From the NCBI RefSeq assembly GCF_023634065.1, contig NZ_JALKCV010000004.1:1-64000 (forward strand): DNA of 64,000 nt. Direction: 5' to 3'. A program made the position numbers and the translations under genes. Origin of the DNA: Microbulbifer litoralis. Lineage in GTDB: Bacteria; Pseudomonadota; Gammaproteobacteria; Pseudomonadales; Cellvibrionaceae. Shown in pieces: positions 4,524-20,457 of the stretch (positions within the stretch are counted from its first letter, which is position 1; every line of letters starts with the position of its first letter). The notes under the pieces are model-generated. The model was not told where the DNA came from. It was given only the letters and a program-made list of their open reading frames with translations, and did no database searches.

Positions 4524-5434
4524 CCCTGTTATCCTGACGCATACGCGAACGCCGCCATTCCATTAAGACGAACTATTCCGTTGTCTCCCAGCGGCACTGG
4601 CCCACTGGACTATTTCAACAATAATGAAGAGGCATTACTGTCGAGGTCAGAAGCTTCGGCATTGAGACTGCTTGTCCGAACCTTCCCAATCGCATGGCAA
4701 ATGTGTTCTGCAAATAAAGAGGATCGATAGCTTCGAGTTAACTTGAAGCCACAGGGAAGAGCTGTCCACTACTACCTATCACTGCAGTCACAGAAGTAAC
4801 GGTTCAGTACATTGCAGAATATTCAACAGGTATTAAGCCCTGACCCATGACATGCTGAACACGAAACTCTCTTCCAAGGAATAGGGTTGGCTGTGTGCAG
4901 GCAGGTGGCGCCCAGCAATCGAAAGCTGGTTCGCGGTGTTAGAGGTGAGAATCGAGAGAAACCAACAAGCACAAAAAAAGAGACTGTGCGTGAAAAAAAA
5001 TGCTGCGAATGCATGAATTCCCCAAACTTCAATATTATCAAAATTATTCGAGTAGACGAAATACCAAAACTCGCGCCTTCCTATCTGAGACATTAATGGA
5101 TAATCAAACCACAAATCAAATGATATTTTTACTGTGACAAGATATAACGAGAAGAAATTCGCGCCAATTTTAGGCCATGAAGGAAACCACCCAAAGGTCC
5201 TTACCATTTTTCCTGTCATATATGGCGATGGCTCTATAAGCTGGCTGTAATCCCAGCGATACCTGCGACGGCAGCATCAAGAAAATACTACCAATTAATC
5301 CCGGCCATTTACCAACCCTCCTTGAGCTATGAAGTAAACATCCGCATTCTAAGAATGCGGATGTTTACTTAATTTTCAAGATAGTTTGACAATGCGACCG
5401 TTCTTGTCTGAGTATTTCGAATACTAATGCAGTA
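4524..5434. other. AT-rich intergenic region without a convincing gene
   Basis: About 900 bp between the NRPS start and the hypE remnant. The NRPS promoter must lie at its left side. Base composition is visibly more AT-rich than either flank, which fits foreign DNA or an old junction. Short reading frames exist on both strands (the longest is 4833-5219 minus), but none resembles a known family. The only clear structure is the perfect palindrome at 5332-5370. Confidence 0.6.
5332..5370. repeat. Perfect 39-bp palindrome, 19-bp arms, 1-nt loop
   Basis: Arms 5332-5350 and 5352-5370 are exact reverse complements around a single A at 5351. The plus strand is followed by an AATTTTC stretch, so it could act as a weak intrinsic terminator rightward. 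On the minus strand no T-run follows. It lies 65 bp beyond the end of the hypE remnant. It could also be an operator or the scar of a mobile element. Confidence 0.8.
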
Positions 5435-5768
5435 TCAACAGATACGTGGCAGTTGCTCACCAGGAAGACGGTGGAGTATACGTTCCAATCCCAGGGTGGT
5501 TCGAAGCGTTACTTCTGGTATATTTGCGCTGCTAACAACACCAATGACCTGACTTGATTCACAACACTTGCTCCTCTTAAGCACAGCGACTGCGAGTTCA
5601 GCCTGCTGGGGTGCTACCAGAGCAATAAAACGCCCTTCACTGGCTACATACAGCGGATCAAGTCCCAGCAACTCACAGGCACCCCGCACCGGTTCGCAGA
5701 CTGGAATTTTTGACTCCGATACCATGAATTTCATCTGTGCGTTTTCAGCCAGCTTTACCAGTGCGGTG
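5435..5768 (-). pseudogene. hypE: hypE remnant: C-terminal fragment of hydrogenase maturation protein HypE
   Basis: The frame reads [11 protein letters not shown], then SKIPV, then RGACELLGLDPLYVASEG and ends in GEQLPRIC. This is the C-terminal third of HypE, including the family's terminal PRIC motif, whose cysteine carries the thiocarboxamide/cyano group destined for the NiFe-hydrogenase Fe centre. The N-terminal ATP-binding part is absent: upstream the sequence turns directly into the 3' end of a groEL remnant in another frame. No other hydrogenase gene is in the window. The methionine at 5734 lies inside the conserved domain and is not a genuine start. A functional short protein is unlikely. 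Confidence 0.85.
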
Positions 5769-6414
5769 GCTGAGCGGCATCCTCTCCTCCCCTTCCGGGA
5801 GGACCGCGATCATCGCCGCGGTGGTAATCATCAGCCCCGCGATCGAGGAGGCGTTCTGTAGTGCGGAGTGCGCCACCTTGGCAGGATCGATTATGCCCAT
5901 TTCGATCAGGTTGCCGTATTGCTCTGTCTGTGCGTTATAGCCATAGTTTCCCTTGCGCTTTCGCCGAATCCCGGTGTCTTCACCGCCGCGGTATGCATGG
6001 TGCCGCGCATGGCATTGACCACCAATGTTGCCAGCGCTTCGCCCTCGATATCTTCGGCGATAAACAGCAGAGGCTACAGCGAGATCTATCCATAGGATTC
6101 ATTCCCGAAACCACTGCCTTGAACCCCTCCTGCATGATGGCCTGGGCCAGCACCGTGGCGGTGGTGGTGCCATCACCGGCCACTTCGGAGGTCTTGGCAG
6201 CGACCTCCTTCAGCATCTGTGCGCCCATGCTCTGGAACTTGTCTTCCAGTTCGACCTCCCGGGCAATGGACACGCCGCCCTTGGTGATCACGGGAGCGCC
6301 GTAGCTCTTTTCGATGATGACATTGCGGCCCTTGGGGCCGAGGGTGGCCTTGACTGCGCCGGTGATAATCTTCGTGTGGGCGTCGGTTCCGAATCTGATT
6401 TCCCTGGCTGGCAT
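5744..6414 (-). pseudogene. groEL: groEL remnant with two internal deletions
   Basis: From ATG 6414 the sequence is a good GroEL N-terminus: [18 protein letters not shown], then [13 protein letters not shown], ending at MNPMD near 6088 (about residue 110). It then jumps, with a frame change and an in-frame TAG, to the apical-domain segment [20 protein letters not shown] (from 6073, about residue 260 of intact GroEL). That segment is joined in frame near 5943 to the C-terminal segment YNAQTEQYG...[16 protein letters not shown]. About 150 and about 180 residues are missing at the two junctions. The last codons run out of frame into the hypE fragment. No groES is nearby. It cannot encode a chaperonin. 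The conservation of the surviving pieces suggests recent loss. Confidence 0.9.
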
Positions 6415-6518
6415 GATCGCACTCTATGGATTTTGGCTGGCCATTGATCCGCAGGGTGCACCGGTAAGCATGCGCCGTGACGGTACCCCCTGTCCGGGCC
6501 GGGTAGTTGCCTGTGTCT

Positions 6519-6971
6519 TTACTGAATGGAAATCCGCTTGGGCTTGGAAACTTCGCGCTTGCCGATTGTCAGGGTCAGGACGCCATTCTCGCCTTTGGCG
6601 GAGATGTTTTCCGGGTCGGCGGTCTCTGGCAAATTAAAGCGACGATAGAACATGCCATGGGAGCATTCGCTACGCATATAGCCCTCTTTTTTCTCTTCCT
6701 TTTCCCACCTGCGTTCGCCTCGGATAACCAGGTTACCGTTATCCAAAGTGATATCGATGTCCTTTGGATCCACACCCGGAATGTCGGCCTTGACCAGGAA
6801 CTGGTTATCTTCTTCGATCACATCGACAGATGGAGCCCACTCACGGCTCGCCATTTCGCCTTCCTCATCAAAAAGGGACGGCCATCGCTCGCCCATGCTG
6901 CGGGTCAACTGGTCGAAATCTTCCTGGAAACGGTGCCATAGGTCGGTAGGTCTTCTGGCTGGAACTTTCAT
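6519..6971 (-). CDS. Small heat-shock protein, Hsp20/alpha-crystallin family
   Basis: 150 residues, the usual size for bacterial class A/IbpA-like small heat-shock proteins. An N-terminal arm with DLWHRFQEDFDQL is followed by the alpha-crystallin domain from about residue 45 (SVDVIEEDNQFLVKADIPGV). The conserved late motif GVLTLTI and the C-terminal KRISIQ, an I-x-I anchor, are present. It is an ATP-independent holdase that binds unfolding cytoplasmic proteins for later refolding by DnaK/ClpB. It lies 128 bp downstream of the glucan synthase on the same strand and next to the dead groEL, so it was probably part of the same stress module. The frame is intact. Confidence 0.93.
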   Translation of the reverse strand: MKVPARRPTDLWHRFQEDFDQLTRSMGERWPSLFDEEGEMASREWAPSVDVIEEDNQFLVKADIPGVDPKDIDITLDNGNLVIRGERRWEKEEKKEGYMRSECSHGMFYRRFNLPETADPENISAKGENGVLTLTIGKREVSKPKRISIQ

Positions 6972-7099
6972 ACTTTCCTCTCATGATCGGTGACAGAATG
7001 CGCCGCAGATCGGCGCAAATGGACAGGAAAATTATAGCGGGATAATTGGAAATCTGACGATCCGACCTACGCCAGAATGGGCCTGTATTGTCTGAACTC

Positions 7100-10000
7100 T
7101 CACGCACTTTTGAATATCCATTGCACGCGATGGCATTTGCCGTCGTCGACCAGTGTAACGCGATCGCCTTCAATCGATTGACCATCTACCGTCAGTGTCT
7201 CGATTTCGCGGCAGCCCCCGCCGGAGTTGTACACCTCAATATCGTAGCGGCTGCTCCGGAAGCGCAGCGATAAACGGAACTCGCTCCAGGATTCCGGCAG
7301 ACAGGGTTTTATCTCCAGGGCGTTACCATCGAGGATTCTCGCCCCCAGCAAGGCTTCGAGTGCCCCGCGATATAGCCATCCGGAAGCACCGGAATACCAG
7401 GTCCAACCGCCGCGGCCAACGTGAGGTGGCACGCCGTACACATCGCCGGCTAACACATAGGGTTCGGTGCGGTAGCGCTGTACACCGGCACCGGTCTCGG
7501 TGTGCGTGATCGGGTTCAACAGGTTGAACAGGTGCCATGCGCGTTCGTTGTGGCCCAAGCCGGCGGCCGCCCAGACTGCCCAGGTGGCGGCGTGGGTGTA
7601 CTGGCCGCCGTTTTCGCGGATGCCCGGCGGGTAACCCTTGATGTAGCCGGGATCCTTCTTGGTCCGGTCGAAGGCTGGCTTCAACAGCAGTATCTGCCGG
7701 GCGTCTTCATTCACCAGATGTTCGTAGGCCGAGTGGATTGCCTCACGTGCCCTTTCGGTCGGCACCTGCTGGGACAAGACCGACCAGGTCTGTGCGATCA
7801 GATCAATCTGGCACTCATCGCTCTCCCGGGAACCGATCGGGGTACCGTCATCGTAGTAGGCGCGCCGATACCAGGCGCCGTCCCAACCATTTTTTTCCAC
7901 CTGCTGGCGAAAGTTGTCCCCCAGTTCCCGATAGTAGTCGGCCAGCGCCCGATCACCGATGTAATCGCACAGCGGCGCCATGTCGCGGCATACGCGCAGC
8001 AGAAACCAGCCCATCCATACGCTTTCGCCGCGCCCGGTGGTACTGATGCGGTTGAAGCCATCGTTCCAGTCGCCGTTGCCGATCACCGGCAATCCGTGCG
8101 GCCCCACGGCGCTGGCGCGCTCGATCGCGCGGCAGCAGTGTTCGTAGAGAGAGCCGGATTCATCGGCGGTATCAAATTCCGCGTAGCGCTCGTGCTCATC
8201 CCGCGCCAGTGGCGCGCCCTGCAGGTAGCTAACCGGTTCGTTCAGGATGCCGTAGTCACCGGTGGTGCGGATATACTGTGCTGTGACCAAAGGCAGCCAC
8301 AGCAAGTCATCGGAACATCGGGTGCGCACACCGCGCAGCGGTTCCTCGTGCCACCAGTGCAATACATCACCATCCTGAAACTGGCGCGAGGCCGCCCGCA
8401 GTATATGGTCGCGGGTCCATTCGGGATGAGTCCACAACAGTGCCTGTACGTCCTGCAACTGGTCGCGAAAGCCGAAGGCGCCGCTGGATTGGTAAAATCC
8501 GCTGCGGCCCCACAGGCGACAGGCCAACGTCTGGTATGGCAGCCAGCGGTTAACCAGGATTTCCGTCGCCTTGTCCGGTACCGCAATCTGCACGCTGCCG
8601 AGATAGTCTTCCCAGAACTGCTCGAAGATCTCGCGGGCCTGTTCGGCTTTTTCAGGGGCACGGAACTGCTTCGCCAGCTCCAGCGCCTGTGTGCGGTCAC
8701 TGCCCTCGCCCATCACAAAATAGACCTGCTGGGTTTCACCGACACCCAGGTCGATATGAACCTGGTAAGCGGCACAGGGGTCGCCACCGCACTGCACCCG
8801 CCCGGACAGCCCGATGCGGAACAGGGCCTCGGGCGCGGCCAGACCGCCCGCCCTGCCGAGGAATTCGTGACGGTCGGTGGTCAGTCCGTGTGGCGGCAGA
8901 CTGGCGGTCAGGAAGGCGACGCCGGGGTTGGCGTCGGGCACAAACGCGTTGCGAGCCAGCAAGGCATTGCTATCGGATTCGAATTCACACACCAGGTAGG
9001 GCCAACTGGCCGCGCGCACCAGCCCCTGGACCCACTCCACGTAGTAAGTGGCGGTGAGGCGCCGCGGTCTGTCCCAGCAGTTTTTCAGCGTCAGGCGCGC
9101 GATTTTTACCGGTGCCTCCCGGTCCGCATAAAAGCGCAACGCTTGCTCCAGACCATGGCTGTTGTGGCGAAATTCACTGTAGCCGGCGCCATGGCGTACC
9201 TGGCAGGCGGCCGCGGCCGGGCGCGGCGCCGGTGTCGGCGTCCAGACTTCGGCCGTCTCTTCGTCGCGCAGGTAAAGCACTTCGCCGCTGGGATCGCGCA
9301 CCGGGTCGTTGTTCCAGGCCGTCAGCCGGTGCTCGCCGCTGTTGCCGCTCCAGGTACAGCAGGAACCGCCTTCGGAAACCAGGCAGCCGAAGCCCGGGTT
9401 GGCAATCACATTGACCCACGGGGCCGGCGGGCGCTGCCCCGGCTCCAGGTGCAGGATGTATTCGCGGCCATCCGCGGAGAAACCGCCGAGACCATTGTCG
9501 AACAGCAGATCCGCCGGGCGCTGCAGTTCCGGTGTCGACTGTGAGACGCCCTCGTCCGGGCGCACCGGTACAAACGGCGGCAGCGGCTGTAGCTGTGACT
9601 GCAGGCTGGCAGCGCCGCGCTCGAGCTGGGTCGCAACCGAGCCGGCATCGGAATCCAGTACCACCCGGGCCGCAGCCAGCAAGCGGATACGCTCGACCCC
9701 GGGCAGTTCCTGCCCCGGTACCATGATGACCGAGCCGGCCAGCTTGCGCAGCGTGCGGCCGCGGATATCGTCGATCATTTCCTGCAGGCGGTCGCGGGTC
9801 TGCTGGGCATAGCCGGCGGATTCCTCGTCGATGATTACCAGGTCCACCGGCAGACCGCGGCCGCACCAGAGTGTATGCGCCTGCAGGATCGGCTCGGCAA
9901 AGCCGATATCCTGCTCCTCGCGGATCTGCACCAGCAGTATCGGGTTGTCGCCGGAGATGCCGCGGCTCCAGAGACCGGGCTGGATATGACGGCTACGGGC

Positions 10001-13000
10001 GAGGACGCGGGAAGGCGCCCGCAGGCCGCTGACCGGTGCCAGCACTGCCGAAAGCAGGTCTGTCATCCAGCGCATGTCGCCGGCGGCAATATGCAGATTG
10101 CGCAACTCCTGCTCCGATTGCATCCGCGCCAGGTCAAACACCCAGTGGGCCTTGGGCCGCGAGTGGTAGTAGCGCAGCGTCGACAACAGTTCGCGCCGGG
10201 ATTTACTCACACCGGTCAGGTAGAGGATTTCGATTTCCGATTGCGGCGCTACTGTCACCTCCAGGGCCGAGGCGATCACCGGGTCGAGCACCGGGCCGGT
10301 AGTACCGGTGAATCCGGCCAGGCCGTCCTGCAGCGCCTGCGGCCTCGCCGGGGATCCGCCGCGGCCCAGGAAGCGGCTGCGGTCGGTTTCCCAGGCCAGC
10401 TTATGCCAGATTCCCGGCTGTCCAACCACGCAGTGGGCAAGGTAAATGGGCTTTTCATTGCTGCCGCGGGGCCTGCGCCGATACAGCATCACCTGTTCTT
10501 CGGCCAGGTACTGGCTTTCCACAAACAGTTTGGCGAAAGCCGGGTGTCGCTGGTCTTCGCGCTCCGGTGCCAATACCACCTCGGCAAAATCGGCCAGCAG
10601 CAGATGGCGCTTCCGATCGCTCTCGTTCTTGATGACCAGGCGCCGTACCTGGACATCGTGTTGCGAACTGACCGCCGTGTGCAAACGGCAGAACAGGTCC
10701 GATTCGCGGCGCTGCAATTCCACCCCCTGGGGGGAAAAGTTCGCCTTGCAACGGCGGGCATCGCCGCCGCAAGGTGCCAGACCGACGGAGAAAAGTTCGC
10801 CACTCTCCAGGTCGCGCACATAACTCCAGTGGCCCCACTGGTGGCGGGTGGGATCCGGCTGCCAGCGGGTGACAGCAATATTGTCCCAATGGCAGCCACC
10901 GGCGCCATCGGCCGCCTGCACCAGGGTCAGATGACCGTTGGACAGCAGGTTGTATTGCGGGAAGGGACGCTGCAATTCGGCCCACCAACTCTCCAGTGCC
11001 ACTTCCGCATGGAAGCTACGCATCACACCGGGGCGCTTCCACGGCCTGAGTGCGGGCGGTGCCGCGGGCAGGCGCTCATACAGCAGCGGTGACAGGCCCG
11101 CCACACGCACGTCGCTGTGAAAACGCCGCAACATGATATCGCCGTGCAGGAAATTGTTCAGGGCCAGCAGGATCATGCCCTGGTGGTGGCTCATATAGGA
11201 GCGCACCGTGCGCGCCCGGCGCGGGGCCGGTTTGGCAGTGCGACCGAAATCGATCGCCTCGTAGAGACCGAAACGGCCATAACCGCCGTGGGCACGCAAC
11301 TGACGCAAATTTTCCATCACCGCGGAAGCCGCGAAAGGCAGTGCCATCATCGATGCGTAAGGGGCAACCACGATGCGATCACCCAGGTCGCGACGAAAAC
11401 CGATTCCCGGAACCCCGAAGGCGCGGTATTGGTAGTGCAGGTGGCTGTCCAGTTCATAGTAGCCGGACTCGGCAATCCCCCAGGGCAGACCGAAACCGCC
11501 GGTAAATTCCCGGTGTACATCGATGGCATTGCGGCAGGCGCGGCCGATCAGGCTGTTGTGCGGCGTTTCCATCAGCAGCCGCGGCATCAGGTATTCGAAC
11601 AGTGTTGCGCTCCAGGACATCAGCATTACCCGGTGATGCAACCGCCTGAAAGGGCGCTCCAGGTGGCGCCAATGGCGCGCGGGTATATCGCCCTTGGCAA
11701 TGGCCAGGAAACCGGTCAGGCGGGATTCGGAGGCCAGCAGGTCGTAATAATTGGGATCCAGCGCCGCGTCGGTAACGTTGTAGCCGATATGGAACAGGTG
11801 GCGATCCGGGTCATAGAGAAAGGCGAAATCCATTTCCTCCACCCACTGGCGTGCGCGGGTCGCAAGCCGCATCAGCTCGCCACTATAGTCATCCGCCTTC
11901 CGGCGCGCCGTTTCGAGTGCATCGCCGAGTTTGTCATTCCAGGCCCGGGTGTCATCACGTTGGTCTTCCGGCACGGTATCGAGGGCACCCCGCAATTCTG
12001 AAAGCCTGCGCTCCGCCTGGGCGCAGGTCTCTTTCAGGGTCGCCAGTGTGACAGGTGCCCGCAGCAGTGCCACCAGGGACTGGAAGGCCTGCGCCAGCGG
12101 GGCCCGCTCCTGCAGATAAGCCGCGGGTGGGGATTGGATCAATCTCTGCCACGGTTCCAGGCTTTCCTGATAGCGGCGCGCTGCAACCGACTGCCGGTGC
12201 AGTTCATCGAGCCAGTGCCGCAGGCGCGCGAGTGCCTCGGCACTGAAATTCCTGTCATCCTGTTCAATCAGTTCCAGCACCTGCGCCTGAAGTGCCGGCA
12301 CTTCCCGCTCAAAGAGCGCATCGATGAGCTCCCACCAGAGCCCCTGCTCCGCTTCCTGTTCGAGCCGCTGGCGCAGCTGTCGGATCGCGCCGATGACCGC
12401 AGCGGTTTCCGCCGGGGTTTCCGTCGGTTCCGGCGTGCCCAGGGTTGCCGCCACCACATCGAGGGTGTCAAAAATTCCCTGTACCAGTTGTCGGCCACTG
12501 AACGGCGTGACGCGCAGTGCTTCCAGTGCCTGCGCCAGCGTCAGCAGGCTGCCGGCCAGGTTACCGCTGTCAACGGTGGAGACATAGCGTGGATTGAGCG
12601 GATGCAGCTCACGGGTTTCGTACCAGTTGAGAAAGTGGCCACGATAGCGCTCCAGACCGCGCATGCGCTCGAGCGTATTATCCAGTCGAGCCAATAGCAG
12701 CGACAAGTCCAGATAACCAAAGTCGTAGGCGCTGACAATGGCCAGCAGGCCCAGGCCGATGTTGGTGGGAGAAGTGCGCCGCGCTAGTACTGCCAGGGGT
12801 TCCTCCTGGTAGTTGTCCGGCGGCAACCAGTGGTCATCCGGCCCCATGAAATGCTCAAAGAAGAACCAGGTTCGCCGAGCCAGCATCCTCAGTTCCCGGC
12901 GGTCCTCCTCGGTGAGCACGGGTTCCTCGACTGGCTTGGGGCGATTGATGTGGTGAATCAGTTGCGGTGCGAAAAGCCAGGCCAGCAACAAGGGAGCAGC

Positions 13001-15730
13001 GGCCAGCAGGTTCCCGGGGGCTGTGGCAAGCAATATCAGGGTCGCCAGCGCTGCCACCGCCGGCGAGACCCACAATTGTCGCCAGCTTCCGTAGGCGCTC
13101 AGGCCAGCGCCCACGGTGCGGTTTACATGGGCGGCCGAAGTCCACTCCAGCAGTCGTCGGTGTGAGATGGTCAGCCGGTAAAGGGTGCGCGCAACCGCGT
13201 CCAGTGCGTTGATTGCCTGACTCGGCAGTAGCGCCAATGTCAAAAGCCAGTGCAGGGAACGCTGTTTCAGCGCTGCCGGGCTGCCACGCAAGTGCCGGTG
13301 AGCGCGTCGCAGGTCGGCGATACTGCGCCACAGTAATGACAGCAGGTCCACCCACACCGGTGCTGCGGACAACAGCAGCAGCCCCAGTGTCCAGGCCCAG
13401 GCGCTGCCGGGCAGCCAACCGCTCCAGGCAAGCAGGAACAGCAACAACAGGCTGGGTGCTTCAAGACTGCGACGGAGATTATCGGCAATCTTCCAGCGGT
13501 GGATCGGCGGGAGCGGATTCAGTACCTTGCTACCCGCGGCTACTGGCACTCGCTTGCGCAACCAGGGGAGCAGTTGCCAGTCGCCGCGGATCCAGCGGTG
13601 ATTGCGCCGCAAAAGGGCGAAAACATTGGGCGGGTACTGCTCGTAGAATATCGTATCCGATACCAGTGCCGCGCCGCCGATTGCGCCCTCCAGCAGGTCG
13701 TGGCTCAGGATGGCATTGTCCGGCAGTTGACCGGCCAACGTGCGGGAGAAGACCTCGGGATCGTAGATCCCCTTACCGGCAAAAATTGCCTCGCCGAACA
13801 GATCCTGATACGCGTCAGAGACCGCATGGGTATAGAGGTCCACGCTGCGGTCACCGGCGAAGATCTCGCTGAAGACAGTCTCTTCGGAAGACGACGGATC
13901 GGTTTCCAGGCGCGGTTGCAGAAAGCCGTAGCCGGAAACCACCCGTTCCCGATCTTCCCCGGATTCCGCGCGATTGAGCGGATGCGCAATGGTGCCGATC
14001 AAGCACCGAGCCGTCCCGGGGGGCATCTGGCTATCGGCATCCAGGGTAATGACGTAGCGGATATCATTCAGTAGTGTCCGATCACCGAAAGTGTGTACAA
14101 AGCCGGTCTCTTCGTCGCCTTCGAGCAGCCGGTTAAATTCGATCAACTTGCCACGCTTCCGCTCCCAACCCATCCAACAGTTTTCCGCCGGATTCCACAG
14201 GCGTTCCCGGTGCAGGAGCAGGAAAGGTGCCCTGCCCTCGCTGTCGGCATAGCGTCTGTTCAATGCCTCAATCGCGCCGCGCGTGTGGTGCAGCAGGCCT
14301 TTATCTACGGATAGACTGCGGGAATCGGCATCGGAAAAGTCACTCAACACTGCATAGATCAGGTTATCCTCATCGTTGTTGAGGAAGTTCATCTCCAGGG
14401 TTTCGAGAACCTTCTGTACGTCTTCCAGGTCGGCGAACAACACCGGCATAACGACTGCGGTGCGATACTCGCCCGGAATTCCCTGCTCCAAATCGAGTTT
14501 GGGAAGCTTGCGCGGTGGCAGACTGTGGGTGATCAGGCCGTTGACCAACGCCAATGCCATTCCCACGAGCGGCACAGCAGCAACAGCCACCACCAGCAGT
14601 GCGAGAGCGGGATTGGTGCCGCCTGCCAGCAGACACACAAGAAATGCAATCGCCAGTGGGACAGAAAATGCCGTCAACGCGGAAAAATAGACGCGCGATG
14701 CCCGTTGCAGTATCCATTTGTGGAGTCGTTCGGTGTTGCCCGGCCGATAGTGCAGCACCCCTTCAAGCGCCTGTTGTCCCTCGCCCACCAGGTAGTAGCC
14801 GACATGTCGCGCACGGTCGCCCCTCCCTTGTTGTTCGCTTAAGTCAATCGCATGCTGGGCCACCTGGTGTTCGCTGCAGTTGCTGCCACGTGCCAGCCTT
14901 TCGACAACCCCCCGGTACCAGTCCCGGGTTTCAAAGTCCATATTGCGGTAAGCACCCGCAGGATCCGTTTCCAGTATTGCCTGCACGTGGCTCAGGGACT
15001 CCACGAATCCTGGCCAGTCGTACGTACGCAGCTCGCGCAGGCTGATTATGATACTGGCAATGCCGACTCCGGCAGCTTCGTCGCTATCTTCCTCGCCCTC
15101 ATGCTCTTCCCTTATCCGGGCAGCAAGCGCTTCTTCGGCCAGGTCTACCAGCCTCTCCAGCAAGCCCAGTCGCATCAGTGCGGGCAGAGCCCAGAGCTCG
15201 CCGGTGGTCAATGTGGTTTCGCTCTGGTATATGCCTACCAGATTCTGTACCGATTCCATATCCAGCGGCTGCATGACCCGACCGACAAGCACGTCCGCCA
15301 GACATCGGGATCGCAGATCCGTAGTGCCATTCTCGTCCACCACTTTGGGCAATTGCCGGAGATAACTCGGCGGCAGGGATTCCCGCACGAGCTCCAGCGC
15401 CTCCTGGACAACGTGGCGGTTGTCCAGAAGCCACTCTTCGCTACGATTGCCCTTTTCACCGGCCTCGACCCGCTCCGAGAGTCGTTGATAGACACCTTCG
15501 AAATAGTGTTCCAGCTGTCCAAGCTGTGAGCGGAGCGGGTATCGGGGCCGAGTGTTGAGGAAATGCCGGTGGCGTTGTGCGAGCGTGGCAATATCCCGCT
15601 GACGTTGTAGCTCGTCCCGGGTTGCGTCCGGATTGTCCGCTTCCAGCGTCACGCCCTGTGAGTGTTTTTTGCGACGCAAAAAACCGTGCCCGCGAATGCC
15701 CGGGAGCATTTTCCAACGTCGTAGTTTCAT
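7100..15730 (-). CDS. ndvB: Cyclic beta-1,2-glucan synthase, NdvB/ChvB-type (GT84-GH94)
   Basis: 2,876 residues, the normal giant size of this inner-membrane enzyme. Order: a cytoplasmic N-terminal region; hydrophobic segments around residues 345-400; a GT84 glycosyltransferase region with TLDADSQMPPG near 560, carrying the DxD-type nucleotide-sugar site; a second membrane cluster around 770-950; a glycoamylase-like domain with HHQGMILLAL near 1513; beta-sandwich modules; and a C-terminal GH94 phosphorylase-like (alpha/alpha)6 domain with GNGDWNDGFN near 2550 and ECQIDLIAQTW near 2640. In the family, UDP-glucose is polymerised into beta-1,2-glucan, which is length-controlled and cyclised, then exported to the periplasm as an osmotic and envelope-stress glucan. 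The start ATG overlaps the upstream usp stop (ATGA), so the two are translationally coupled. No truncation is visible. Confidence 0.93.
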   Translation of the reverse strand: MKLRRWKMLPGIRGHGFLRRKKHSQGVTLEADNPDATRDELQRQRDIATLAQRHRHFLNTRPRYPLRSQLGQLEHYFEGVYQRLSERVEAGEKGNRSEEWLLDNRHVVQEALELVRESLPPSYLRQLPKVVDENGTTDLRSRCLADVLVGRVMQPLDMESVQNLVGIYQSETTLTTGELWALPALMRLGLLERLVDLAEEALAARIREEHEGEEDSDEAAGVGIASIIISLRELRTYDWPGFVESLSHVQAILETDPAGAYRNMDFETRDWYRGVVERLARGSNCSEHQVAQHAIDLSEQQGRGDRARHVGYYLVGEGQQALEGVLHYRPGNTERLHKWILQRASRVYFSALTAFSVPLAIAFLVCLLAGGTNPALALLVVAVAAVPLVGMALALVNGLITHSLPPRKLPKLDLEQGIPGEYRTAVVMPVLFADLEDVQKVLETLEMNFLNNDEDNLIYAVLSDFSDADSRSLSVDKGLLHHTRGAIEALNRRYADSEGRAPFLLLHRERLWNPAENCWMGWERKRGKLIEFNRLLEGDEETGFVHTFGDRTLLNDIRYVITLDADSQMPPGTARCLIGTIAHPLNRAESGEDRERVVSGYGFLQPRLETDPSSSEETVFSEIFAGDRSVDLYTHAVSDAYQDLFGEAIFAGKGIYDPEVFSRTLAGQLPDNAILSHDLLEGAIGGAALVSDTIFYEQYPPNVFALLRRNHRWIRGDWQLLPWLRKRVPVAAGSKVLNPLPPIHRWKIADNLRRSLEAPSLLLLFLLAWSGWLPGSAWAWTLGLLLLSAAPVWVDLLSLLWRSIADLRRAHRHLRGSPAALKQRSLHWLLTLALLPSQAINALDAVARTLYRLTISHRRLLEWTSAAHVNRTVGAGLSAYGSWRQLWVSPAVAALATLILLATAPGNLLAAAPLLLAWLFAPQLIHHINRPKPVEEPVLTEEDRRELRMLARRTWFFFEHFMGPDDHWLPPDNYQEEPLAVLARRTSPTNIGLGLLAIVSAYDFGYLDLSLLLARLDNTLERMRGLERYRGHFLNWYETRELHPLNPRYVSTVDSGNLAGSLLTLAQALEALRVTPFSGRQLVQGIFDTLDVVAATLGTPEPTETPAETAAVIGAIRQLRQRLEQEAEQGLWWELIDALFEREVPALQAQVLELIEQDDRNFSAEALARLRHWLDELHRQSVAARRYQESLEPWQRLIQSPPAAYLQERAPLAQAFQSLVALLRAPVTLATLKETCAQAERRLSELRGALDTVPEDQRDDTRAWNDKLGDALETARRKADDYSGELMRLATRARQWVEEMDFAFLYDPDRHLFHIGYNVTDAALDPNYYDLLASESRLTGFLAIAKGDIPARHWRHLERPFRRLHHRVMLMSWSATLFEYLMPRLLMETPHNSLIGRACRNAIDVHREFTGGFGLPWGIAESGYYELDSHLHYQYRAFGVPGIGFRRDLGDRIVVAPYASMMALPFAASAVMENLRQLRAHGGYGRFGLYEAIDFGRTAKPAPRRARTVRSYMSHHQGMILLALNNFLHGDIMLRRFHSDVRVAGLSPLLYERLPAAPPALRPWKRPGVMRSFHAEVALESWWAELQRPFPQYNLLSNGHLTLVQAADGAGGCHWDNIAVTRWQPDPTRHQWGHWSYVRDLESGELFSVGLAPCGGDARRCKANFSPQGVELQRRESDLFCRLHTAVSSQHDVQVRRLVIKNESDRKRHLLLADFAEVVLAPEREDQRHPAFAKLFVESQYLAEEQVMLYRRRPRGSNEKPIYLAHCVVGQPGIWHKLAWETDRSRFLGRGGSPARPQALQDGLAGFTGTTGPVLDPVIASALEVTVAPQSEIEILYLTGVSKSRRELLSTLRYYHSRPKAHWVFDLARMQSEQELRNLHIAAGDMRWMTDLLSAVLAPVSGLRAPSRVLARSRHIQPGLWSRGISGDNPILLVQIREEQDIGFAEPILQAHTLWCGRGLPVDLVIIDEESAGYAQQTRDRLQEMIDDIRGRTLRKLAGSVIMVPGQELPGVERIRLLAAARVVLDSDAGSVATQLERGAASLQSQLQPLPPFVPVRPDEGVSQSTPELQRPADLLFDNGLGGFSADGREYILHLEPGQRPPAPWVNVIANPGFGCLVSEGGSCCTWSGNSGEHRLTAWNNDPVRDPSGEVLYLRDEETAEVWTPTPAPRPAAAACQVRHGAGYSEFRHNSHGLEQALRFYADREAPVKIARLTLKNCWDRPRRLTATYYVEWVQGLVRAASWPYLVCEFESDSNALLARNAFVPDANPGVAFLTASLPPHGLTTDRHEFLGRAGGLAAPEALFRIGLSGRVQCGGDPCAAYQVHIDLGVGETQQVYFVMGEGSDRTQALELAKQFRAPEKAEQAREIFEQFWEDYLGSVQIAVPDKATEILVNRWLPYQTLACRLWGRSGFYQSSGAFGFRDQLQDVQALLWTHPEWTRDHILRAASRQFQDGDVLHWWHEEPLRGVRTRCSDDLLWLPLVTAQYIRTTGDYGILNEPVSYLQGAPLARDEHERYAEFDTADESGSLYEHCCRAIERASAVGPHGLPVIGNGDWNDGFNRISTTGRGESVWMGWFLLRVCRDMAPLCDYIGDRALADYYRELGDNFRQQVEKNGWDGAWYRRAYYDDGTPIGSRESDECQIDLIAQTWSVLSQQVPTERAREAIHSAYEHLVNEDARQILLLKPAFDRTKKDPGYIKGYPPGIRENGGQYTHAATWAVWAAAGLGHNERAWHLFNLLNPITHTETGAGVQRYRTEPYVLAGDVYGVPPHVGRGGWTWYSGASGWLYRGALEALLGARILDGNALEIKPCLPESWSEFRLSLRFRSSRYDIEVYNSGGGCREIETLTVDGQSIEGDRVTLVDDGKCHRVQWIFKSA

Positions 15731-16716
15731 CGATGGGTAGAGTTATCTTCCGGCAGTGTGGGATGGCGTATCTGGCAGAATTCGGCCCCGGAGCGCAGAG
15801 CCTGTAACTGGCTTTCCGGCAGGTCCTGAAAGACCAGAACCGGCCTTTCGCTGTGACAGGTCACTGTGTGGCACAAGGTCCCGGTAAACTGTTCGGCGCC
15901 CGTCTGCCAATCGTGGGCACTCATTGCGATAAGGTCTACCTGTTCCCGATCCGCCGTCGCGTAGATTCGTTCAGCGACATTCTGGTCCACCATCAGAAGC
16001 GGCCGTATCTCAATTCCATTTCTCAGCTGGCGGGCCATCTCTTCCAGGTATGCCTCCGCGGCTCGCCGATTGCATTCGACAAACTTTTCCCGCGTGGCGT
16101 GCTCCTCTCGGGTAATGGGCATACGGCGCGGCATTTCAGGCACGGCAATTACCTGCAGTAGGATCAGTTCTGCGGCCTGCCCCCGCAACATGGAGGCGAC
16201 TTGGCATGCCACCCACTCGGAGCGTGGCGAACCGTCCATTGACACCAGCACCCGCCGGTAGGCGGCCCCATTCGTAGCTGCCGATGCCTGACCGGGACGC
16301 ACGACCATAAAGGAGCACCCAGCACCGCTGAAAACCTTGTGTGCAGTGCTGCCGAAGTCAAAGCGACTGGGCCCGCCCCGTCCGAAAGCGGTAAAAACAA
16401 TCAGGTCAATATTGTGGTCTTCGCAGAATTCGACGATCTGTTCGGCCGGGCGCCCCTCGACGATTGACAGCGTTACCGGAATGTTCCGTTCGGAAATGCC
16501 TTCGGCCAGATGATTCAAGTAACTGCGCAACTCCGCGCGGCGCAACCGCCAATCCACAGGATCAATGCTGTGCCCGGCGGCATGGGCTTGCGACTTCTGT
16601 ACATGTAGAAGATGAATTTCCGCGCCGCCCGCATGGGCAATTGCCTCCGCATGGGCAATGGCTTCCTCCGCGACGGTGGAGCCATCGAGAGGCAACAGGA
16701 TATGTTTGAACGACAT
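15727..16716 (-). CDS. Tandem-domain universal stress protein (UspA family)
   Basis: 329 residues with two Usp domains. Domain 1 starts FKHILLPLDGSTVAEEAIAH; domain 2 starts near residue 153 with YRRVLVSMDGSPRSEWVACQ. Domain 1 ends with a GSTAHKVFSGAGCSFMVVRP stretch, close to the ATP-binding G-2x-G-9x-G-S/T signature. Tandem Usps of this length resemble UspE. They are soluble stress-survival proteins, often induced by hypoxia or stationary phase. The gene overlaps ndvB by four bases and probably leads a usp-ndvB operon. Its promoter should lie in the 215-bp gap shared divergently with the ppsA remnant. No obvious FNR-type TTGAT-N4-ATCAA site was seen there. Confidence 0.92.
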   Translation of the reverse strand: MSFKHILLPLDGSTVAEEAIAHAEAIAHAGGAEIHLLHVQKSQAHAAGHSIDPVDWRLRRAELRSYLNHLAEGISERNIPVTLSIVEGRPAEQIVEFCEDHNIDLIVFTAFGRGGPSRFDFGSTAHKVFSGAGCSFMVVRPGQASAATNGAAYRRVLVSMDGSPRSEWVACQVASMLRGQAAELILLQVIAVPEMPRRMPITREEHATREKFVECNRRAAEAYLEEMARQLRNGIEIRPLLMVDQNVAERIYATADREQVDLIAMSAHDWQTGAEQFTGTLCHTVTCHSERPVLVFQDLPESQLQALRSGAEFCQIRHPTLPEDNSTHR

Positions 16717-16931
16717 GCGTTAATCCCTGGCTGATCGGGTTGGCGCAAATCTGCAATTCTTGGCCGACAAGGACAGTGGTGCCTTATTTTATCGAACGCA
16801 GTCTCGCGTTTTCCTAATATTTCGAGACATTCAGTAACACGCGCATAGATTAGCTCAGCTATGGTCAAGAATACTAACGCGCGCTCCAGCTCAGGTTGAA
16901 TGCAGAGTCAATTTTAGCGAGATCATACGCA

Positions 16932-17985
16932 ATGGGTGACCGTCCCTATATTCACTGGCTCGAGGAAATAAGCCTGGATGATATCGCCGACGTCGGTGGA
17001 AAATCTGCATCTTTGGGTGAAATGTACCAGTCTCTGGTGCCCCGGGGAATCCGTATTCCCAAGGGATTTGCGGTTTCGGTCGAGGCCTACCGCGATCTTC
17101 TCGACCAGGCCAATGCGTGGAAGCCTCTGCGTGAATTACTGCGGTATTATGCCGGGTCAAGTGACGGCCAGGAGATCAGGGCTGCTGAAAAAGCGTGCAC
17201 CCTCATCTACGAGGCGGAGCTACCGGACGAACTGGATAGAGAAATCGTCAGTTCCTACGTCGCGCTTTGTGAGCAGTATGGTCCACTGCTTCGCGTTGCG
17301 GTTCGAAGATCCGCCACAGCAGAGGACCTGCCCGATGCCATCTTTTCCGGTCAGTACGACAGGTTCCTCAATATCGGCGACAAGGAAGGTCTGCTCGATG
17401 CCTGTCGAAGTTGCTTCGCCTCCCTGTTCACGGAGCGGGCTATCAGCTACCGGGAACATCACGGACTCGATCATTTCAAGGTCTATCTGGCCATCGTGGT
17501 AATGAAGATGGTGCGCGCGGATCTGGCCGCCAGTGGTGTTATGTTTACGCTGGCATGGAAAACGGCTATCGCGACGTGATATTCATCAATTCTGCCTTCG
17601 GTCTGGGAGACAGCATTGTCCAGGGCGCGGGAATTCGGTATTCCCGCCGTAGTGGGTATTGGCGATCAGAGTCAACTGAAAGACGGCGAGACGGTGACCC
17701 TTCCAGCGAACTGACACAGCTTGTACTCGGTGTCGATCGGGATTCCGATATTGTCGCCTCTGATTTCGATGAACGGGACCCGGGCGTGCCCGAGATGTTG
17801 CGCCTGGCGGTCGAGGTCGTGCACAACCAGGGGATACCGGCGGGGATCTGTGGTGAGGCCCCATCGAATTATCCCGAGGCGGCCGAGTACCTGGTACAGC
17901 TCGGGATCGACTCCATCAACCTGAGCTCGGATGCGCTATTGCGAACGACTGAAAAGGTTTCCGCTATCGCGCGCGGCCGGCATCC
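16932..17985 (+). pseudogene. ppsA: ppsA remnant: phosphoenolpyruvate synthase with frameshift and two deletions
   Basis: From ATG 16932 about 200 residues match the PEP synthase N-terminus: DVGGKSASLGEMY, RIPKGFAVSVEAY, VRRSATAEDLPDAIFSGQYD, MVRADLAASGVMFT. A one-base loss near 17549 shifts the frame, and the next frame continues with NGYRDVIFINSAFGLGDSIV. The central region is then deleted. A third frame carries the phosphohistidine-domain tail (FGIPAVVGIGDQSQLKDGE, about 17630-17708). A second deletion joins this to the C-terminal catalytic end SELTQLVLGVDRDS...PAGICGEAPSNYPEAAEYL (17706-17985). The intact enzyme is about 800 residues and makes PEP from pyruvate and ATP; this copy lacks the phospho-carrier histidine region and cannot work. 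Confidence 0.88.
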
Positions 17986-18066
17986 GGGCATGAGAAACGG
18001 AACCATTGAGTATGACTATACAGCGGCCTGCTCCAGCGGCAGGCCGGCTGTATTGAGGGACATTAT

Positions 18067-18477
18067 ATGCATCCAACCACCTGGTATTCAAAACTGGCGA
18101 AATCCGCTGCACGCTTCTGCGGGCGCCCGCGGATATTTGTCGCAGCACTGGGAATCATCCTGCTATGGGCGGTTTCTGGCCCACTATTCTCCTTCAGCAA
18201 TACCTGGCAGCTGATTATCAATACGGTTACCACCACAGTGACTTTCCTGATGGTATTTCTGATCCAAAACACTCAGAACCGGGATACCGAGGCGATCCAG
18301 ATCAAACTGGACGAGCTGATTCGTGCCACGCGGGGGGCGCACAATGCGTTGCTCGATCTGGAGGAACTCGATGAAAACAATCTTCAGGAATTCCTGCTTC
18401 GCTACGAACGCCTGGCGACCGTGGCCAGGGACGAGCTCGCGCGCGGTCAGCAGGATACCGGAACACCAGAGCCCTGA
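18067..18477 (+). CDS. Low-affinity iron permease (Fet4)-family small membrane protein
   Basis: 136 residues. Two transmembrane segments (about residues 23-42 and 46-66) are followed by QNTQNRDTEAIQIKLDELIR and an acidic helical tail. The QN(T/R)xxRDxxAxxxKLDELI pattern is the signature I associate with the PF04120 (Fet4-like) family in bacteria. The name comes from the yeast low-affinity iron transporter; bacterial members are one-repeat proteins of unproven transport activity. A GAGGGA ribosome-binding site lies 6-7 bases before the ATG. Upstream, 18024-18046 can form a GC-rich hairpin (GGCCTGC / GCAGGCC) that may end the ppsA remnant transcript. Confidence 0.8.
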   Translation: MHPTTWYSKLAKSAARFCGRPRIFVAALGIILLWAVSGPLFSFSNTWQLIINTVTTTVTFLMVFLIQNTQNRDTEAIQIKLDELIRATRGAHNALLDLEELDENNLQEFLLRYERLATVARDELARGQQDTGTPEP

Positions 18478-18781
18478 GTCACTGGAGCAGGTTCGGGAAG
18501 AGCTCGGCACGGACTCCGCGGCAAGGCGGACGGACATCAGGTAAATGTAAATGGCGCTTCCTGTCGTTTTTGCTCGTGTCTGCGTCTGTGGCATCCGTTT
18601 ACGCAACTTTTGGGTAACTGGCCCGGCAACACTAGGTGAAAACACCATGATTCGACCAGCAGAGCGTATTCCGGCATGCCCCCAGAGACGATTTCAAAGC
18701 CGACAGCGCGCGCCAGCCGCCATTGGCCCATACTTTAGCAAGAAATTCCGGAAACAGTGATTATTTTATGGGAAGGCTGCT
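18478..18781. other. Intergenic, nothing recognised
   Basis: 304 bp between the Fet4-like gene and the cyclic-nucleotide-binding gene. Short frames here show no family resemblance. The sequence becomes AT-rich just before 18782 (GTGATTATTTTATGG), which may be the promoter or leader of the next gene. Confidence 0.5.
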
Positions 18782-19270
18782 GTGCGACAGCTAGATGGTG
18801 ATTTTTTACTGGACGAAGTTGGTATCGAGCATTTCAAGGATGCTGCAGCATTCGGCGCCTTGACCGACGAGGCGATCACTTATCTTATAAAGAAAGGACG
18901 TATTCACGCCTTGCACAAAGGCGAAACATTGGTCAGGGCCGGAGAGCCCTCGGGTTCTTTTTTTATTGTTCTCAGAGGTTCACTGGGCTACTACCAGGCA
19001 CTGAACAATCACGTCGAGCATATATACGACTTCCATTTCGGAGAGGCCATAGGTTTCGTCAGCATGATCGCGTTGACGCCCTGGCCCGGAACGACGATAG
19101 CAGCCAGCGAGAGCCATATACTGGAGGTGGATACCAACCTGTTTTATACCATGCATTGCGAGATGCCATTGGACTTTGGCGTACTGCTGATCAACTTGTC
19201 CCGGGAGCTGGCGCGAAGGATCCTGGATCTTATCCAGACGGTGGCGGAACAGAGAAGGAACAACCGCTGA
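18782..19270 (+). CDS. Cyclic-nucleotide-binding (CRP-like sensor) domain protein without HTH
   Basis: 162 residues, essentially one cNMP-binding beta-roll. It shows GRIHALHKGETLVRAGEP, SFFIVLRGSLGYY and FHFGEAIGFVSMIA, the last corresponding to the phosphate-binding cassette. In cAMP binders that cassette is usually FGE(I/L)AL followed by an arginine; here no arginine follows, so ligand binding is uncertain. After the roll one helix (INLSRELARRILDLIQTVAE) ends the protein, and the DNA-binding HTH of CRP/FNR regulators is absent. It may signal by protein contact. A GTG start at 18782 is used here; there is no better in-frame ATG nearby. It sits in the stress island between the ppsA and ATPase remnants. 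Confidence 0.78.
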   Translation: MRQLDGDFLLDEVGIEHFKDAAAFGALTDEAITYLIKKGRIHALHKGETLVRAGEPSGSFFIVLRGSLGYYQALNNHVEHIYDFHFGEAIGFVSMIALTPWPGTTIAASESHILEVDTNLFYTMHCEMPLDFGVLLINLSRELARRILDLIQTVAEQRRNNR

Positions 19271-19341
19271 GAGTGTCGGCCACAAAGATAGGTTTGGCCG
19301 TCGCTATTGGTCTTCAGCGCGCGACGCAGTGGTGGTAACCG

Positions 19342-19434
19342 GGCACAGCGAATCATGGCTACCGGGCCGTGCACTTCGGCGATGACTCCGATCGGTTCCA
19401 CTGTGCCTTCGATGTTCGGGTTGCTTTGAGCCAC
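19342..19434 (-). pseudogene. Possible N-terminal remnant of an alternative F1 ATPase beta subunit
   Basis: About 31 residues from ATG 19434 read IGVIAEVHGPVAMIRCARLP, then PLRRALKT. The pattern G-x-(I/V)-x-x-V-x-G-P-V-x-x-x-x-x-x-x-LPP-(I/L) is the start of the F-type ATPase beta subunit beta-barrel domain. After this the frame loses similarity and runs antisense into the preceding gene. Alternative (N-type) ATPase operons are accessory clusters in marine bacteria, so a fragment here would fit the other remnants. The match is short, so this call is tentative. Confidence 0.4.
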
Positions 19435-19458
19435 GGATTTTTCCCGCAGGACCGGTAA

Positions 19459-20457
19459 CTACAGCAATAGCCGCTCTAGCAGGTCCAGGCAGCGGCAGGC
19501 GTATCCGTACTCGTTGTCGTACCACACCTGAACCTTGGCCAGGTTTCCCTGACTGCGGGTAGAGAGACCGTGCACGATGCCTGAATGGGGATCGCCGATA
19601 ATATCGGAAGAAACCAGCTCCTCCTCGCTATAGGCGAGGATACCGCGCATCTTGCCGTCGGCGGCGGCCTTGAGCACGGCATTGATCTGTGCCGCATCGG
19701 CACTGTTTTTCAGCTGCACGCAAATATCTGTCAGCGAGCCGTCCGCCACCGGTACCCGGACTGCCAGTGCACTGAGGCGATCCTTGAGTTGCGGCATCAC
19801 GGTGATGGTGGCGGCATCGGCACCTGTGCCGGTGGGAATCATATTGATGGCCGCTGCGCGGCCGCGAATGTTCTTGCTCGCGGGCAGGTCCACCACGCTC
19901 TGGCTGGCCGTGTAGGCGTGAATGGTGGTGACATTGGCCTGCTCTATACCGAAATTGTCGTCCAGTACTTTCAGCGGCGGTGCCAGGGAGTTGGTGGTAC
20001 AGGAGGCGTTGGAAATGACATGGTGCAGGTCCGGTTGAAAATCTGTCTCATTGACGCCCATTACCAGGGTGATGTCCGCGTCGGCGGCCGGCGCACTGAT
20101 CAGTACACGACTGGCACCGGCTTGCAGATGTTTTGCTGCTTCGGCGCGTCTGGTGAAGCGTCCGCTGCAATCAACTACGAGATCAATACGCTCTTCATCC
20201 CAGGGCAGTTTCTCCGGGTTCATCTCGGAAAACAGTGAGAGTTCCAGGTTTTCGATGTAGAGACGACTCTGCTCGATAGAGATGTCACGATTTAACCTGC
20301 CATGTATCGAGTCGTATTTCAGTAGATAGAGCAGGTTTTCCGTCGACATCGGCTCGTTGGCCGCTACCAAAGTGAAGTGCTTGTACCCACCTTGTAGATA
20401 GCGGCGTAATAATAATCGGCCAATACGACCGAGCCCATTGATGGCTACGCGTTTCAT
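19459..20457 (-). CDS. gap: Type I glyceraldehyde-3-phosphate dehydrogenase
   Basis: 332 residues from ATG 20457 (MKRVAINGLGRIGRLLLRRY). A longer frame to 20523 lacks family similarity. It has an N-terminal Rossmann fold with GLGRIGR, the catalytic cysteine in SNASCTTNSLAP near residue 152, the histidine in IHAYTASQSVVD, and a C-terminal VQVWYDNEYGY motif. It oxidises glyceraldehyde 3-phosphate to 1,3-bisphosphoglycerate with NAD(P). The SQSVVD segment differs from the common TQ/DQ variants, and it may be an accessory isozyme or an erythrose-4-phosphate dehydrogenase relative. It is the right-hand intact gene of the stress island. No phosphoglycerate kinase or other glycolytic gene adjoins it. 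Confidence 0.9.
   Translation of the reverse strand: MKRVAINGLGRIGRLLLRRYLQGGYKHFTLVAANEPMSTENLLYLLKYDSIHGRLNRDISIEQSRLYIENLELSLFSEMNPEKLPWDEERIDLVVDCSGRFTRRAEAAKHLQAGASRVLISAPAADADITLVMGVNETDFQPDLHHVISNASCTTNSLAPPLKVLDDNFGIEQANVTTIHAYTASQSVVDLPASKNIRGRAAAINMIPTGTGADAATITVMPQLKDRLSALAVRVPVADGSLTDICVQLKNSADAAQINAVLKAAADGKMRGILAYSEEELVSSDIIGDPHSGIVHGLSTRSQGNLAKVQVWYDNEYGYACRCLDLLERLLL

Follow-up and report, generated by a model that had tools for sequence, protein, structure and literature searches.

A 15-kb block of stress genes and gene remnants in Microbulbifer litoralis as a probable eroded form of a larger Microbulbifer island

Why do complete stress genes alternate with mere fragments of others in one short segment of a bacterial genome? 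The question is raised by 15.0 kb of DNA inside the window analysed here, namely the first 64,000 bases (1-64000) of contig C4 (NZ_JALKCV010000004.1, 389 kb) of Microbulbifer litoralis, whose draft genome (G000; 4,990,775 bases in 40 contigs) is rated 100% complete. Read from left to right, the window carries an open reading frame (ORF) resembling a non-ribosomal peptide synthetase (NRPS), a hypE remnant, three groEL pieces, hsp20, ndvB and usp, and from usp rightward four ppsA pieces, a Fet4-like gene, a gene for a cyclic-nucleotide-binding (cNMP) protein, an atpD remnant and gap (Table 1). The limits proposed by a first-pass annotation, 5435..20457, coincide with the stop of hypE and the start of gap, which are also both ends of a larger island present in other species of the genus. 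We consider it highly probable (about 0.87) that the block is an eroded form of this Microbulbifer island of about 34-36 kb, part of it having been deleted and part being held under purifying selection.

Comparisons were made with Microbulbifer congeners (the G-numbered genomes and M. hainanensis), a first set of 24 being used for NdvB, GroEL, gap, PpsA and the hydrogenase large subunit (PF00374), and a wider genus sample of 30 for usp and the N-type ATPase beta subunit (AtpD). The parent locus gathers gap, an N-type ATPase operon, a P-type ATPase, ppsA, a two-domain usp, ndvB, a [NiFe] hydrogenase, and hypA, hypF, hypD and hypE, joined in some congeners by fet4, the cNMP gene, hsp20 or groEL2. 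It occupies 33.9 kb in G043 (283426-317318) and about 34-36 kb across G011, G017 and G043. Its order in G043 is gap, atpD to atpG, the P-type ATPase, ppsA, usp, ndvB and an acetyltransferase gene (k17), followed by a hydrogenase part that runs from hydB onward with a cNMP-binding gene and then through hypA, hypF, hypD and hypE; G011, G017 and G013 match this order in outline. The M. hainanensis locus (L030) reads cNMP, P-type ATPase, ppsA, usp, ndvB, hsp20, groEL2, k17 and hydB to hypF, where it stops. M. hainanensis and G015 have both hsp20 and groEL2 after ndvB, G040 and G001 have hsp20 there but no groEL2, and G002 has groEL2 with no hsp20 detected. The islands of G043, G011, G017, G013, G015 and M. 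hainanensis share with the window their families and the order around usp-ndvB, and congener islands also have hypE at one end and gap near atpD at the other (G022, G040, G043). On the contrary, the window holds no hydrogenase or P-type ATPase, most of its N-type ATPase is gone, and groEL2, ppsA, hypE and atpD persist as scraps.

Beyond atpD, the island ends with gap. Orthologs of the window's gap, 68-76% identical, were found in G005, G022, G040 and G043, three of them near the N-type ATPase genes: in G040 and G043 the distance to atpD is 83-99 bp, and in G022 it is ~1.2 kb, with one predicted ORF between. The pairing of gap with atpD in the window is understandable because gap orthologs stand near atpD in these relatives. 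G005 has the gap ortholog and no N-type AtpD, and in G040 the gap-ATPase part lies ~57 kb away from the remaining island. The pfkB-linked gap of G002, G015 and G017 was rejected as a counterpart, since it is a different gene, only 42-44% identical.

Island protein families, checked by profile in G011 and G002, comprise two P-type ATPases, a tetrameric sulfhydrogenase-like [NiFe] hydrogenase, a maturation protease, HypF and HypD. The G011 subunits match, below curated cut-offs, the beta, gamma, delta and alpha models of sulfhydrogenase (a tetrameric NAD(P)-linked [NiFe] enzyme), together with the maturation protease model, while of this system the window keeps a hypE scrap only. The hydrogenase of the G011 type presumably belongs to group 3b. 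One P-type ATPase of the G011 island (L166:14135-16414, minus strand) has a C-terminal hemerythrin domain. The N-type ATPase operon was reportedly treated by Dibrova et al. 2010. Its gene order was compared on the basis of PMC5376962; likewise, G011 has beta and epsilon first, then a, c, b, alpha and gamma, while the complete operon is absent from the window, where only the first 40-60 atpD codons are found.

Losses were then evaluated over the whole genome. No match to PF00374 was obtained in the M. litoralis genome, 17 of the 24 congeners being positive. N-type AtpD (81-100% identical to that of G011) is present in 13 of 30 congeners and island PpsA (74-100% to G011) in 11 of 24, M. litoralis holding only a fragment of the former and fragments of the latter. 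Thus, the reduction of hydrogenase maturation proposed earlier is borne out by hypE and was understated, the structural hydrogenase genes being lost too. A separate ppsA is kept at C4:90051-92366 (49% identical to the island copy of G011), as is one complete groEL at C2:534043-535542; the lost ppsA and groEL were therefore second copies, and their loss may have been cheap.

Pfam and TIGRFAM profiles, tblastn and blastn located the named genes and remnants where the first-pass annotation had placed them, and its possible ATPase beta fragment proved real, belonging to the N-type beta subunit. The hypE remnant is 50-60% identical to hypE of five congeners and has its stop in common with G011. The groEL pieces correspond to about residues 1-115, 246-286 and 454-534 of the protein; their nucleotide limits in Table 1 refer to M. 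hainanensis groEL2 (1623 nt). The third piece is fused to the hypE remnant, into which it runs straight. The first ppsA piece terminates at a frame change, the intact product being of ~820 amino acids (aa). The atpD remnant is 44-63% identical to six congeners, with E values down to 2e-14 (8.6e-9 in a separate search), and joins the cNMP gene shortly past the cNMP stop codon, so that the cNMP gene is complete. An atpD match antisense to the cNMP gene was discarded as an artefact of an over-long query, and no P-type ATPase remnant was detected in 18480-18780 at E 0.01 with proteins of seven congeners. The description of end pieces that had lost interior or 5' segments fails for atpD, which lost its 3' part; calling those pieces highly similar was an overstatement, their protein identity to relatives being 44-87%. 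Similarly, the reported tandem usp does contain two Usp stretches, both within a single gene.

Table 1. Complete genes and gene remnants of the block, with positions in the window.
Feature	Position	Strand	Description
hypE remnant	5435..5770	-	Last 111 aa + stop; TIGR02124 positions 222-332/332 (5438-5770), E 4.9e-29
groEL2 piece 3	5774..5960	-	M. hainanensis groEL2 nt 1417-1603; blastn 83% over 187 nt
groEL2 piece 2	5961..6073	-	M. hainanensis groEL2 nt 736-848; blastn 83% over 113 nt
groEL2 piece 1	6087..6414	-	M. hainanensis groEL2 nt 1-346, 18 nt internal gaps; blastn 77%; PF00118 stretch E 5.9e-20
hsp20	6519..6971	-	Open; PF00011 E 4.8e-26; 85-87% identical in M. hainanensis, G015, G040
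ndvB-like cyclic glucan synthase	7100..15730	-	Open, 2876 aa; PF06165, PF17167, PF10091
Universal stress protein (usp)	15727..16716	-	Open; one gene, two Usp domains (PF00582)
ppsA piece 1	16896..17552	+	aa 1-219; 60-66% to 6 congeners; PF01326 positions 3-189/328
ppsA piece 2	17558..17629	+	aa 221-244; tblastn
ppsA piece 3	17625..17702	+	aa 445-471
ppsA piece 4	17702..17974	+	aa 722-812; 75-80% to 5 congeners; 67% to G022 over a longer stretch
Fet4-like low-affinity iron permease	18067..18477	+	Open; PF04120 E 2.2e-48; 85% to G011
cNMP-binding protein	18782..19270	+	Open; PF00027
atpD remnant	19267..19443	-	N-type ATPase beta, N-terminal 40-60 aa
gap (type I glyceraldehyde-3-phosphate dehydrogenase)	19459..20457	-	Open; TIGR01534 380.6 bits vs cut-off 367.2

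Substitution rates were compared between open genes and remnants. The ratio of nonsynonymous to synonymous rates (dN/dS) is 0.04-0.15 in window pairs for ndvB, usp, fet4, the cNMP gene and gap, and for hsp20 the synonymous rate is saturated in both window pairs. The dN of the window branch, a three-taxon estimate expressed relative to the mean of two reference branches, gives ratios of 0.77 for ndvB, 0.78 for usp, 0.92 for hsp20, 0.69 for fet4, 0.94 for cNMP and 0.99 for gap. Among the remnants it reaches 2.23 and 2.26 in ppsA pieces 1 and 4, 2.80 in groEL piece 1, 1.61 in hypE and 2.45 in atpD. Replacement change is accelerated in five of the six remnant pieces measured and in none of the six open genes; relaxed constraint on remnants is thus found together with constraint on retained genes, groEL piece 3 excepted. 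The open gene order of the congeners, the genome-wide disappearance of the hydrogenase and the constraint on the open genes lend good support to the original proposal of segmental deletion with retention. The modest excess in dN suggests that much of the divergence arose in genes that were still functional and that decay came later in the lineage, a dating made rough by the near-saturation of synonymous sites.

These observations may be ordered in a simple scheme. An ancestral island would have carried an N-type ATPase, one or more P-type cation ATPases, a second phosphoenolpyruvate (PEP) synthase and a sulfhydrogenase-like hydrogenase with its maturation genes around a usp-ndvB core, hsp20, groEL2 and the cNMP-binding, Fet4-like and gap genes being part of it in some species. 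Several deletions, presumably following disuse, would have removed the second chaperonin along with most of the energy genes, one of them perhaps at a short direct repeat, and ppsA would additionally have been hit by a frame change. The usp, ndvB, hsp20, fet4, cNMP and gap genes stayed under purifying selection, and the retained set may serve as a stress kit that does not depend on the hydrogenase. Six junctions are available in three gene blocks: two within groEL, one between groEL and hypE, two within ppsA and one between atpD and the cNMP gene. The junction of ppsA pieces 2 and 3 lies in the word GGCGCGG; of the two relatives compared, M. hainanensis shows this word at the left donor site and G011 at the right one. 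Random junctions share at least 7 bases in about 0.04% of simulated cases, and this word, the best among the six junctions, is a hint of short-repeat deletion. Microhomology as a general mechanism was dropped, the 7-nt word occurring at this junction only.

Several points weigh against the eroded-island interpretation, or at least against details of it. None of the relatives examined has all the gene families of the window, G015 and G040 being the ones that approach it, and the ancestral state is therefore a composite. The 7-nt repeat is itself assembled from two different relatives, and the other junctions display no clear repeat at this divergence. Regarding rates, groEL piece 3 shows no acceleration (0.74), and the ratios cover six of the nine remnant pieces (groEL pieces 1 and 3, ppsA pieces 1 and 4, hypE and atpD); they are, moreover, noisy because the measured pieces are short (50-208 codons), and synonymous rates are saturated in many pairs.

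The rival that survives best holds that the block is purely vertical in the genus, decaying in place and never transferred. It agrees with the presence of the locus in many congeners (NdvB, full or near-full length and 69-76% identical, in 13 of 24; a usp ortholog in 17 of the 30 searched), as well as with its place relative to k6, the gene that follows the OmpW-family gene to the right of gap: the locus lies within ~4 kb of k6 in G000, G005, G011 and G017, and 9-17 kb from it in G002, G015 and G043. Nonetheless, trees built from the same ten genomes reject each other's groupings. Six core proteins on the k6 side (k6, k13, k27, k28, k29 and k43; 2634 columns) place G000 with G040, the grouping G000+G011 being rejected (log-likelihood difference 421; approximately unbiased (AU) test, 3.2e-55), whereas usp+ndvB (3195 columns) favour G000+G011 over G000+G040, which they reject (difference 244, AU 8.7e-8). 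Furthermore, an 11-taxon core tree has G016 as sister to G000 (two of the six core proteins being available for G016), and this nearest core relative has no NdvB ortholog, usp ortholog or PF00374 match; the same arrangement in close relatives, which the first-pass annotation had regarded as contrary to its own view, was hence not encountered there. Strictly vertical descent is on balance unlikely. Because the core and usp-ndvB trees conflict, this pair has probably moved within the genus, exchange inside Microbulbifer being the simplest reading of the sequences, and paralogy with differential losses a possible one. The conflict is established for usp+ndvB in ten taxa. The block had been described as acquired, which stands only in the sense of movement within the genus, the locus being common in Microbulbifer.

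Composition was considered as proof of foreign origin and dropped due to its mixed signal: at 1-7.5 kb and at 15-25 kb the tetranucleotide distance is larger than in any of the 37 background windows, across ndvB it is not, and the excess extends to genes outside the island. The window contains no tRNA, direct repeats longer than 31 nt are absent from 1-24000, and no mobility family was found among the window proteins scanned, which represent part of the ORFs (the left flank being the contig end).

An assembly or binning artefact, in which short pieces would result from the collapse of reads from an intact island, is conceivable for a 40-contig draft in a window that begins at a contig end. Considering that (i) the six junctions lie in three blocks, 5-20 kb inside a 389-kb contig, (ii) most measured remnants accumulated extra replacement changes and ppsA has a frame change, and (iii) no hydrogenase large subunit is found anywhere in a genome rated 100% complete, such an origin is very improbable. 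Still harder to credit is that the pieces encode functional new short proteins under selection (e.g., a PpsA N-terminal ORF of 227 aa or a GroEL N-terminal ORF of 144 aa), since both ORFs, despite being open and starting where the proteins of relatives start, run into tails in another frame and change 2-3 times faster in replacement than relatives, and the PpsA piece halts inside the ATP-binding domain.

What, then, might the retained core represent? NdvB/Cgs proteins are of ~2800 aa and carry Glycoamylase and GH94 domains. The window protein has PF10091, PF06165 in two stretches and PF17167, and by its domains is of the cyclic beta-1,2-glucan synthase family, the glucan product being predicted. 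A distant second match to its C-terminal part (29%) occurs elsewhere in the genome (G000:C1:385661-387760). When scanned against named genomes, this NdvB matched at least 74 loci, 12 of them titled Microbulbifer, in which identity is 68-77% and exceeds that of all others among the matches listed. Outside Microbulbifer, 62 of the matches listed were checked and 42 hold at least 1.5 kb upstream; 19 of these 42 usable loci have a usp no more than 1.6 kb upstream of the ndvB-like match and in the same orientation. The usp-ndvB pair is therefore wider than the island. Such pairs include members of Anaerolineae, Myxococcales and Salinisphaera (e.g., L039, L044, L046, L052 and L074).

Partial island genes also appear in congeners, as seen in single homology passes rather than a full survey: G005 retains 34 aa of ppsA, G001 the first 38 aa of fet4 and G015 the final 40 aa of the acetyltransferase. 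The G015 island groEL (G015:C1:480729-482237) has one in-frame TAG, possibly the start of the same loss. In-frame stops in hydD, hypE and other genes of relatives were taken as over-extended starts and excluded from decay counts. A tentative and rather doubtful extension is that the island unites the hydrogenase, the second copies of ATPase, PEP synthase and chaperonin and the stress genes in one functional kit for survival at low energy, passed between Microbulbifer species and repeatedly pared around usp-ndvB, a separable stress unit that would outlive the energy genes, with hsp20, cNMP and gap accompanying this core. It fits since scraps occur in G005, G001 and G015, the G015 groEL has its TAG and usp-ndvB pairs exist outside the genus; on the contrary, several congeners (e.g., G010, G012, G018 and G021) keep the hydrogenase with no NdvB or usp ortholog.

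The kind of event described is already known, and this is a clear but ordinary case of gene decay. Young bacterial pseudogenes are removed by deletion according to Kuo and Ochman 2010 (PMC2916853); disabled genes are likewise removed by deletion here, the difference being that the window offers one case only, clustered and with its adjacent genes preserved. The literature searched, in which subscription papers are mostly not included, yielded no description of the gene set, and the terms hydrogenase and universal stress are absent from the main text of the Microbulbifer comparative paper PMC12388028. The locus provides a snapshot of a multi-gene island half-removed, with open relatives for the lost parts, and so allows one to ask which genes go first and which stay constrained. 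The recurrent set of N-type ATPase, [NiFe] hydrogenase, second PEP synthase and usp-ndvB has had no test of a joint role in the literature searched, and usp-ndvB is singled out as the part worth testing alone.

Regarding the remaining open genes, the cNMP-binding protein is 70-74% identical to those of G013, G040 and M. hainanensis, and 59% to that of G022. Just past the hypE remnant, a near-perfect palindrome of 45 bp (5329-5373) has 22-nt arms, 95% complementary, and a 1-nt spacer; a DNA search of the own genome with 5300-7100 listed no second copy of it. An orphan ORF of 128 aa (4833-5219, minus strand) has no Pfam match at E 0.01 and no homolog among the clustered ORFs of the congener loci. 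Bases 1-4500 were at one point taken as decayed DNA, an idea dropped because they form one open NRPS-like frame that runs off the contig start and was missing from the closed-ORF list. This left-flank ORF (1-4523, minus strand) has as its top NCBIfam match PRK05691 (non-ribosomal peptide/polyketide synthase), with an E value of 4.7e-241.

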